Of a stretch of 64,000 bases of DNA, positions 13,025 to 19,661 are shown piece by piece. Source of the stretch: Maricaulis sp. Lineage in GTDB: Bacteria; Pseudomonadota; Alphaproteobacteria; Caulobacterales; Maricaulaceae. The translations under genes were made by a program, and so were the position numbers. Location: contig JAEPND010000003.1 in the NCBI GenBank assembly GCA_017643585.1, positions 1 through 64,000 on the forward strand, written 5' to 3'. The notes under the pieces are model-generated. The model did no database searches. It was given only the letters and a program-made list of their open reading frames with translations, and was not told the origin of the DNA. Numbering within the stretch: the first letter of the stretch is position 1; each line of letters opens with the position of its first letter.

Positions 13025-14713
13025 TCAGGCCTGGCGCCTAGCCCGCCGTTTTGCAAAGCGTTGCGGCTCGAATGCCTCCACACCCAGCCGCTCCAGCGCC
13101 CATGGCTCACCACAGATCTGCGATGCCAGCTGTTCCGCCAGCAAGGGCGCATGCGCGAACCCCCGAGACCCGAGAGCGGACAGGACGTATTCGCCTTCGC
13201 CTACAGCCCCGACTACGGGAAGCCGATCGGGGGTCGAGGCCCGACAGCCTGACCAGGACGAGAGCGGATCTGGATCGATGGACTGTGCGATTTCGGGTCG
13301 AAGGTTTTCAAGCGTCGTATGAAAGGCGCGGATTTCCGCCTCATCCTGCCCGGCGTCCCAACCCTTTACATGGGTCGCGCCGAGCACAATCCTGCCCGCG
13401 CCGGCCGGGACGAGATATCCGCCCCAGCTCAGCGGCTGGTGATCGGCGTACGATGCGAAGACACCCACGCGGCCGGAGCTGGCAGCAATATCCCCTTGCA
13501 AGTCGAAGGCGGGGCCCGTGGCGGAAACGACAACTTCCCCGGCTTCCGCCTCGCCCTCAGTTTCCACACTCACATCACCGACAAGACTGTCCACGATTTG
13601 CCTGGGGTGAAACCAGCCCGAACTGCGCATATCCAGCGCACCGTCAGCCCAGCAGTAGTCCTCTCCCATCAACATTGCGAGTTCCGGGAAGCGGCTGGCA
13701 TCCTTCTCATTGCCCGGCAACCGCGTCACACCGGTCGAGTGATAGGCGGGCATGGGGGCATACAACCGGCGGGCAAACTCGAAGGCTGCAAGTGTCGCCC
13801 GCACATGCGGCCGGTCCGCCTTTTCCAGCCGGGGTGTTAGCAAGCCTGCCGGCGCAGATGAAGCGCCCTTTCCGACCCCGTTCGGATCGAGAATCCGGAC
13901 CCCGCAGCCACGCATGCGAAAAGCCCGGGCCAGCGATGCCCCGGCAATCCCGGCGCCGCGAATGCAGATGTCCGGCCGGCTGACCGAGGCCGTTTCGGGC
14001 GTGCCGGGATAGATCGCCTGCAAGCGTTCCCGCTTGCGTCCGAACCCCGGTTGTTTGGACACCTCGAAACCTGCCGCTGCCAGGCCCCGGCGCACGATAC
14101 CTGCTACGGTGAAAGTCCCGACCCGGGCACCGGGCCGCGACAGGCGTCCCAGGTGATTGAGCACCGCTTGCGACCACATGGCCTCGTTTTTCGCCGGCGC
14201 AAAGCCGTCCAGAAACCAGCAGTCCATCTGCGCATGCATCTGTTCAAGCGCCTGTTCGGCCTCGTCGTGGAACACCGTGATGGTGAAACGATCGTTCGGG
14301 AAGACAAGCCGGTGCGGCCCCTTCAGACGACTGGGCCACTGCGCCAGCAATTGGCGTGTCAGCTCGGCCAGTTGCGGCCAGGCTTCGAACGCTTTTTCCG
14401 CCTGCGCCCGGCTGAGCGGATGTTTCTCGATACTGACAAAATGCAGCCAGCCCGCAGAGTTGCCCTGCTCACGCCAGAGCTGCCAGAGCGCCACGGCGTT
14501 CAGACCGGTACCAAAGCCCAACTCGCCCACAACAAAGGCCGATTTTCCGTCCCAGGATTCGGGCAGGTTACAGGCCCTGAGGAATACCTCGCGGGTTTCC
14601 TCGAGCCCGTCTTCAACAGAAAAATAGACGTCGCCGTAATCGCTCGCGCGCGGTCCGCCAGGCTGGCTCCAGTCCAGCTGCGCAGGTTCACACAGGAGCG
14701 TATCTTGCGTCAT
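13025..14713 (-). CDS. mnmC: Bifunctional tRNA wobble-uridine modification enzyme MnmC (methyltransferase + FAD oxidoreductase)
   Basis: This 562-residue protein has two fused domains. Residues ~1-240 are the MnmD SAM-dependent methyltransferase (DVYFSVEDGLEETREVFL, FVVGELGFGTGLNAVAL, WFLDGFAPAKNEAMW). From ~245 comes the FAD-dependent oxidase with the dinucleotide motif GAGIAGASLARAF and a C-terminal GSRGFAHAPLLAEQLAS. Together they convert cmnm5(s2)U34 to nm5 and then mnm5(s2)U34 in tRNA. It is slightly shorter than the E. coli enzyme. The gene begins 3 bases upstream of the next minus-strand stop codon, so it is probably co-transcribed with the hydrolase before it. Confidence 0.93.
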   Translation of the reverse strand: MTQDTLLCEPAQLDWSQPGGPRASDYGDVYFSVEDGLEETREVFLRACNLPESWDGKSAFVVGELGFGTGLNAVALWQLWREQGNSAGWLHFVSIEKHPLSRAQAEKAFEAWPQLAELTRQLLAQWPSRLKGPHRLVFPNDRFTITVFHDEAEQALEQMHAQMDCWFLDGFAPAKNEAMWSQAVLNHLGRLSRPGARVGTFTVAGIVRRGLAAAGFEVSKQPGFGRKRERLQAIYPGTPETASVSRPDICIRGAGIAGASLARAFRMRGCGVRILDPNGVGKGASSAPAGLLTPRLEKADRPHVRATLAAFEFARRLYAPMPAYHSTGVTRLPGNEKDASRFPELAMLMGEDYCWADGALDMRSSGWFHPRQIVDSLVGDVSVETEGEAEAGEVVVSATGPAFDLQGDIAASSGRVGVFASYADHQPLSWGGYLVPAGAGRIVLGATHVKGWDAGQDEAEIRAFHTTLENLRPEIAQSIDPDPLSSWSGCRASTPDRLPVVGAVGEGEYVLSALGSRGFAHAPLLAEQLASQICGEPWALERLGVEAFEPQRFAKRRARRQA

Positions 14714-17797: not shown

Positions 17798-17864
17798 AAA
17801 AAAGCCCTCAGCGTTTCAGTTATATAAACAAACTTCGTGTATCCCGAACCTGAAACGAGGGATC

Positions 17865-19661
17865 ATGACCGCACGTGGACTGACTATACGCTACGTACTC
17901 GCACTTGGCGTCATCGCTCTGATGGCGGCAAGCGTGCTGTCCGTCTCGATGATCGTCGGGCGAGCAGCATCCGAAGATGCGGGTCTCGTCAACATGTCGG
18001 GTCGCCAGCGCATGCTGAGCCAGCGCATTGTGATGCTATCGCAGCAAACGCAGACGGCCACTACCGTGCCGCAACGGGCGAGCGCAGAACAACGCCTTGC
18101 CGACGGTACCGAGCTATTCGCGCGGTCTCATCTCCATCTCGTACGCGCCGCTCAGGCGAGGCCTGCGATCGACACGCTCTACCAGGGCGAGCCCGCCCTG
18201 GACAGCTTGTCGCTGGAATTCATCAACTTGGCGGACCTGGTGCTGCGGGGTGATACCACCAGCATCAGCCTGCGTGAGCTGGGCGAGCGTGGCGAGGCCA
18301 TCCTGCCCCTGCTCGACGACGCCACCAATGCCTTTGCCGACGCGGCGGATGCACGCGTTCTTTTCATGGATCGCATCGAGACGGCCGCCTTCGCCGTTAC
18401 CTTGTTGCTTCTCCTGGTGGTCGGCTGGTTCATCTTCCGACCGGCAGTCTTCTCCATTTAGCAGAGCATGCGGGACCTCAAGGATGCGCGCGATGAAGCC
18501 TTCCGGGCGAACGCCGCTAAAACCAGCTTCCTGGCGCAGATGAGCCATGAAATCCGCACGCCCCTGAACGGTGTCATCGGAATGGCAACCGGCCTAGGCT
18601 CGACCAAACTTGATGATGAACAGCGCAAGATGGTCACGACCCTACAGTCGTCCGGCGAACTGCTTCTCACCGTCGTCAACGACATTCTGGACATCTCCAA
18701 GGTCGAGGCCGGCGAGGTCAAGCTGGAGCAGGCGGACATTTCGCTGGAATAGATCCTCAACTGGATCGATTCAACCTATCGGCCGGCCTGCGCCGCCAGG
18801 GGCCTGAAATGGACGACGCATGTCAGCGAGGATGCCAGAGGCTGGTATCGCGGCGATGCGACCCGCATCCGCCAAATCCTCTCCAACCTGGTCTCGAATG
18901 CCATCAAGTTTACCGAAACCGGTGAGGTCAGCGCCGAAATTCGCACGACGGATGGATCGTCTCCGCAAGCCCCCGCGTTCGAGATCGTCGTTCGGGACAC
19001 GGGAGTCGGGATCCCCGAAGACCGGCTCGCAGCAATCTTCAAACCGTTCGAACAGGCCGACGCCTCGACCACACGGAAATTCGGCGGTACTGGCCTGGGG
19101 CTCGCCATCTCGAAAAAGCTGTCCGAACTGATGGGCGGAAAAATCAGCGTCGAGTCTACGGTTGGAGCCGGAACGGTGTTCACCGTCGCCTTGTTGCTCG
19201 CCCCCGGCGAAGCGCCTATGCCCCAGGAAAGCTTCAAGCATCAATCGCTTGATACACTCGCGGAACGCTTGCGCGCGCTAGTCGTGGATGATGTCGCGAC
19301 CAATCGCCTTGTCATGCAGACCTTGCTGGCGCCCTTGGAAGTTGATGTCACCTGTGCAGCCAGCGGGCAGGAAGCGCTCGACATTCTGAAGAGCGAGCAC
19401 TTTGATTTGGTCCTGATGGATGTGCAGATGCCAGGAATGGACGGTGTGGAAACCACCCAGCAGCTGCGCTTGAGAGAGCAGCGGGCGGGCCGATCGAAGA
19501 CGCCCGTTGTCGCCGTCACCTCCAATGTCCTGCCCGAACAGGTCGCAGCCTATAAATCCGCAGGGCTTGAGGAACACCTGGCCAAGCCGGTAAAGCGGGA
19601 AGAGCTGGTCGAGCTCCTCACCTATTTCCGCAGCGAACAGAAACAGCGCAAGAGCGCCTGA
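17865..19661 (+). pseudogene. Hybrid histidine kinase with NarX/PilJ-type sensor, interrupted by two in-frame TAG codons
   Basis: One frame of 599 codons runs from 17865 to 19661 and is open except for TAG at 18459-18461 and 18750-18752. Conceptual reading gives a first membrane helix, a periplasmic PilJ/NarX-type sensor (DAGLVNMSGRQRMLSQRI), and a second helix (TAAFAVTLLLLLVVGWFIF) that ends right before the first TAG. HisKA ([18 protein letters not shown]) follows, then the second TAG. The ATPase domain has all boxes (NLVSNAIKF, DTGVGIP, GGTGLGLAI), and a receiver domain has LVLMDVQMPGMDG and a late Lys (AKPV). No frameshift is seen. The simplest reading is a recently inactivated kinase; the pieces 17865-18461 (sensor) and 18468-18752 (HisKA) may still be annotated as separate genes. 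Confidence 0.8.

Follow-up and report, generated by a model that had tools for sequence, protein, structure and literature searches.

A hybrid histidine kinase gene of Maricaulis sp. interrupted by two TAG codons is very probably a recent nonsense pseudogene

The window analysed here (bases 1-64000 of contig C33) belongs to a Maricaulis sp. genome of 3.10 Mb (3,096,523 bases, 46 contigs, 99.95% complete) and contains a locus which is very probably a recently inactivated nonsense pseudogene of a membrane-bound hybrid histidine kinase. On translation, the frame at 17865-19661 of the forward strand turned out to comprise 596 sense codons and three stops, namely TAG at 18459-18461 (codon 199), TAG at 18750-18752 (codon 296) and the original terminator TGA at 19659-19661. 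Besides these three, the frame contains no stop, and the remaining five frames across the same stretch have 6 to 32 stops apiece. The initial annotation had described a single frame with all kinase modules, broken by the two TAG codons only, and both the translation and the Pfam search agree with it. It had also given a length of 599 codons, which is right for the extent of the frame but includes the three stops.

When the frame was read through both TAG codons, four domains exceeded their curated Pfam cut-offs: PilJ (residues 35-104), HisKA (218-283), HATPase_c (330-445) and Response_reg (472-585). With HisKA, HATPase_c and Response_reg all above the cut-offs, the gene is a hybrid histidine kinase by ancestry. 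It has the same four domains as the PilJ-type hybrid histidine kinases (PF13675 + HisKA + HATPase_c + Response_reg) and differs from them in the two stops, and the three pieces retain these domains when they are scanned individually. The purine-rich motif GAGGGA at 17857-17862 (+), which resembles a ribosome-binding site and may act as one, lies ahead of the native start. Piece 1 (17865-18458, +) begins with ATG and encodes 198 aa with the PilJ-type sensor (PF13675) and two membrane spans, as judged by eye, and the first TAG is placed just after the second span. Piece 2 (18462-18749, +) contains HisKA (bases 18516-18713) with the region of the phospho-accepting His, and the second TAG falls between HisKA and the ATPase domain. 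Piece 3 (18753-19658, +) holds HATPase_c and Response_reg. In the alignment with the orthologues, inspected by eye, the H box, the N box, the G boxes and the Asp, Thr/Ser and Lys positions of the REC domain are all kept.

Full-length orthologues of the kinase exist in 7 of the 18 other genomes of the genus (G003, G004, G005, G006, G008, G014 and G015). They share 48-71% identity, are stop-free inside and show no length break. All seven are open at both TAG sites, and this absence of the in-frame stops from intact orthologues is a feature of nonsense pseudogenes; both TAG codons are private to one of the eight genus genomes having the gene. The initial annotation had suggested looking for CAG, GAG or AAG at both sites in relatives. 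Codon 296 is Gln in all seven orthologues (CAG in six, CAA in G004), and codon 199 is variable (S, Q, Q, A, E, T and N), so the second stop strikes an invariant position and the first one where the residue is free to vary.

In the remaining 11 of the 18 genomes, the best match to the whole frame starts at residue 177 or later and is thus without the sensor. With the sensor piece as query, the seven genomes with a full-length orthologue again give a match; the other 11 give none, and three of them are less than 90% complete (65, 69 and 89%). Because the sensor piece is unmatched in these 11 genomes, the kinase gene seems dispensable in the genus. Across the family, the sensor piece is matched in 17 of 137 genomes, own genome counted. 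The gene has the same neighbours on both sides, named by eye as MFS-type and transglycosylase, in the six relatives whose flanks were read (G003, G004, G005, G006, G008 and G014). An intact second copy, named in the initial annotation as something that would speak against its description, was rejected for this assembly, since the sensor piece matches its own genome once; the own-genome matches to the whole frame start at residue 149 or later among the matches listed. In the contig scan, 589 relatives were ranked, and no match among the best 80 reaches into residues 1-174 of the kinase. A literature search on a Maricaulis histidine kinase gave, among the papers listed, none whose title or abstract names the two.

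To judge the age of the stops, we compared the three pieces with G004. The differences at codon positions 1/2/3 are 0.30/0.21/0.55 in piece 1, 0.13/0.05/0.52 in piece 2 and 0.24/0.14/0.57 in piece 3, which is the pattern of coding genes in all three pieces. Of the 205 residues on which the seven other sequences all agree, 6 carry sense changes in the window copy; the intact G004 copy, by the same rule, also has 6 of 205, and the other six orthologues have 3, 1, 8, 9, 2 and 1. Relaxed constraint is expected of old pseudogenes and not required of young ones; as the window copy departs from the conserved residues no more than its intact sister copy, the stops appear to be young. Counted against three agreeing outgroups, the single-lineage changes of the window copy and G004 are 13 and 6 in piece 1, 2 and 2 in piece 2, and 12 and 12 in piece 3; the excess in piece 1 is small and lies in the direction of relaxation. 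The kinase differs from G004 by 0.20/0.13 at first/second codon positions, faster than its immediate neighbours with 0.07/0.03 and 0.05/0.04, although another gene, at 13025-14713, comes close to this speed (0.17/0.13). The fast divergence is not caused by the stops, as the kinase of G004 is open.

A simulation, in which random neutral substitutions were placed on the G004 copy, gave a time frame for the inactivation. With 40 substitutions, six or fewer conserved changes had a probability of 0.15-0.18, and with 60 one of 0.005-0.007; the probability of exactly two stops was 0.07-0.19 for 20-40 neutral substitutions. For the same 20-40 substitutions the probability of no indel was 0.14-0.02, under an assumed indel rate of 0.1 per substitution. 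In this simulation, two stops together with the observed level of change are compatible with less than about 60 neutral substitutions after the gene was inactivated, and from these probabilities the inactivation is probably recent. Recent inactivation, the first option offered by the initial annotation, is supported. Two points count against a pseudogene: the lack of visible relaxation would also fit a gene still in use, and two stops without an indel need luck or a short time.

The initial annotation had found it odd that both nonsense changes are identical. In the codons of the window kinase, 57-63% of single-base nonsense changes lead to TAG, varying with the transition weight, and in the codons of the G004 orthologue the proportion is 45-47%. 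Squared, these values mean that both of two stops are expected to be TAG about 20-40% of the time. Among the simulated two-stop outcomes, TAG occurred twice in 19-24% at 20 or more substitutions, with one value of 18%. Because TAG accounts for 45-63% of the expected nonsense changes, two TAG codons of two are unremarkable, and the supposed oddity disappears.

What the gene can still produce depends on the start codons behind each stop. In working relatives, going by the families, the PilJ-type sensor would regulate how the HisKA histidine is autophosphorylated by the HATPase domain, followed by relay to the attached REC. In the window, two point mutations would have created the TAG codons, and translation from 17865 would stop after the membrane sensor. 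Re-initiation at ATG 18468, two codons (6 bases) past the first TAG, is conceivable and would give a HisKA stub at most; by eye, no clear ribosome-binding site is seen before this ATG or at the six inner start codons inspected. Within 18753-19130 there is no in-frame ATG, GTG or TTG, and only the rare start codons CTG, ATC and ATT occur. The first usual start in piece 3 is codon 423 at 19131, which is within the ATPase domain, so the ATPase-REC part is left without a usual start before residue 423. With this gap and the early stops, the product would presumably neither phosphorylate itself nor relay, and the missing start of piece 3 argues for absence of a functional product. The gene is accessory in the genus, and its loss would thus be tolerated.

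The start codons also bear on the suggestion, made in the initial annotation, that the pieces are used separately. The three pieces would then be made one by one and cooperate like CheA3/CheA4 of Rhodobacter sphaeroides, which the part of PMC3591291 cited here describes as a split kinase, so that such kinases do exist. The breaks in the window gene sit between domains, and the spacing of ATG 18468 behind the first TAG may permit re-initiation. The likeness to CheA3/CheA4 would be that the phospho-accepting part and the ATP-binding part sit on different chains (PMC3591291); the difference is that the ATP-binding part of the window kinase has no usual start and its orthologues are single-chain. 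A split histidine kinase needs its own translation start for each part, and when the usual starts ATG, GTG and TTG are considered, none precedes the bulk of the ATPase domain (330-445) in piece 3. We rejected the split kinase on this missing start, and with 0 of 7 orthologues split and no clear ribosome-binding site at the inner starts, its probability is extremely low.

Broken genes elsewhere in the genome were sought in a stop survey of 1,238,520 of 3,096,523 bases (40%). The stretches were chosen and not random, contigs C14 and C33 entered the sample because they hold broken kinases, and the survey filter was codon usage, not homology. As natural terminators, 657 long non-overlapping ORFs use TAG (241), TGA (287) and TAA (129). 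On the 1.24 Mb, the survey yielded rows for 54 TAG, 30 TGA and 32 TAA; a usual start within 12 codons past the stop is missing in 21, 13 and 3 of them, respectively. The share of TAG rows is somewhat above that of TAG among natural terminators. A stricter survey gave 20 TAG, 11 TGA and 7 TAA on 478 kb of this genome, and 11, 9 and 5 on 400 kb of G004. The surplus of TAG deserves little weight, because by eye most of the survey hits are frames on the opposite strand or places where a gene ends naturally, the sample is non-random and CAG is frequent in this genome (30.8 per thousand, compared with 6.7 for CAA). Three candidates (C11:221179, C11:497837 and C45:23383) had no match in the family scan and were dropped, as was C11:447337, where an RNA phosphodiesterase domain ends just ahead of the stop. 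It turned out that the sample contains at least eight broken genes, window kinase included (six by TAG, one by TAA and one by TGA), which is a rough lower bound and not a census.

Among these is a second hybrid histidine kinase at C14:74-1801 (-), with one TAG at the Gln of the F box; at this site the G004 copy, 95% identical, reads CAG (Gln), G010 likewise has Gln and G003 has Arg. A sensor gene from C11:183447 onward (+), whose start we presume from its motif to be CHASE4-like, is broken by TAG and by a frame-shifting net loss of 10 bases relative to G004. Its TAG site is variable, with A, E, D, S or G among 11 relatives, and the frame is open over 641-770 codons in 16 other genomes of the genus. 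In a kelch protein gene at C45:35409-36740 (-), TAG replaces a Trp which is TGG in all three relatives compared, two of these three having a stop elsewhere, at one end of the matched stretch. A conserved protein at C11:214163-214918 (-) has TAG (214655) at a site that is His/Tyr in all three relatives compared; 13 other genomes match it, one with TGA in the match. The RND-type transporter at C22:110496-113558 (+) has TAG inside its domain, and its pieces, scanned apart only and from the own-genome sequence alone, match adjoining parts of one Pfam model. The TAA case is a LytS-type histidine kinase at C45:25780-26958 (-), where G004 has GAA. The G004 frame has three stops (one perhaps ahead of the start) and several indels of its own, and decay of the gene thus seems to be under way in both species. 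In the TGA case, a cyclophilin-like gene at C43:114463-115095 (+) is stopped within its domain; it is unmatched in all 18 other genomes of the genus and is possibly a failed acquisition.

The replaced residues differ between the TAG-broken genes, so TAG is not read as one single amino acid in this genome, and the overall pattern resembles common nonsense decay more than a recoding of TAG. That other genes are interrupted within their frames by TAG, TAA or TGA at unrelated residues was counted in favour of the window locus being a pseudogene. Reassignment of TAG to Gln was raised by the C14 kinase, as TAG stands at a Gln of relatives in two genes, at codon 296 (7 of 7) and in this kinase (G004 and G010). 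It was rejected on the TAG codons at Trp, His/Tyr and variable sites, the 241 of 657 long ORFs terminated by TAG and the lack of a CUA tRNA; besides, release factor 1 scores over its cut-off and is stop-free inside, and the seven orthologues have no internal TAG. There is hardly any chance that this reading is correct. The search for an amber suppressor, proposed in the initial annotation, found the CUA anticodon (CTA) in none of the 37 tRNA loci (30 + 7) of the draft assembly; Ile-GAT and Ala-TGC tRNAs are also missing from these 37 loci, and some tRNA genes may thus be absent from the draft. A sequencing or assembly error at both TAG sites is very unlikely. The assembly is a draft of 46 contigs, but two substitution errors within 300 bases, both giving stops with no other damage, would be improbable, and similar stops occur in other genes, although an error-rich assembly would give the same.

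Read-through, another option of the initial annotation, supposes that both TAG codons are leaky and are read, e.g., by a Gln tRNA, often enough to give a little full-length kinase, with the stops as a dosage brake. The codon-position bias and the conserved residues kept in all three pieces are in its favour, and Belinky et al. 2021, in the part of the paper cited here (PMC7918605), make the case for widespread bacterial in-frame stops under purifying selection (dN/dS below 1), with a TAG/CAG example, and interpret them as frequent read-through. The window gene resembles these cases, since its frame is otherwise constrained and one TAG occupies a CAG/Gln position. In the same part of the paper, however, the stops are common to two or more species, whereas the window TAGs occur in one genome. 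The published stops are also inferred to be mostly short-lived. Two stops in series would multiply the loss, release factor 1 is intact, TAG ends many long ORFs, and the TAG codons of other genes stand at Trp, His/Tyr or variable residues, one such gene also being frameshifted. Programmed read-through would involve a dedicated suppressor tRNA, of which none was found, although the draft could miss one and a normal tRNA could misread the stop; it would also involve a stop conserved in relatives, all seven of which have sense codons at both sites. The sole sign for read-through would be the sequence constraint, which a young pseudogene may explain equally well. We consider leaky stops improbable, and quite improbable the further idea that they keep a useful kinase at trace level as a brake of short duration, with other sensors such as the C14 hybrid kinase throttled likewise.

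As a recent nonsense pseudogene, the locus can be compared with what is reported for prokaryotes. In the portion of Liu et al. 2004 cited here (PMC522871), pseudogenes make up 1-5% of most prokaryote genomes, and the histidine-kinase-like ATPase family PF02518 is among the top pseudogene families. The window kinase is like the nonsense pseudogenes in this portion of the paper in having premature stops beside intact relatives, and differs in being apparently very young, with no frameshift and no visible relaxation. It would be a clear young case of signalling-gene loss in a bacterium, and, as several sensor genes are broken in this genome, could help to date how signalling genes are pruned. Proof of read-through would make the locus relevant to the question of how frequently internal stops leave bacterial genes functional. 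What's more, the sister species G004 has a histidine kinase paralogue (C1:16160-17293, -) with one TAG in the matched stretch, which may lie mid-gene or be the natural end.
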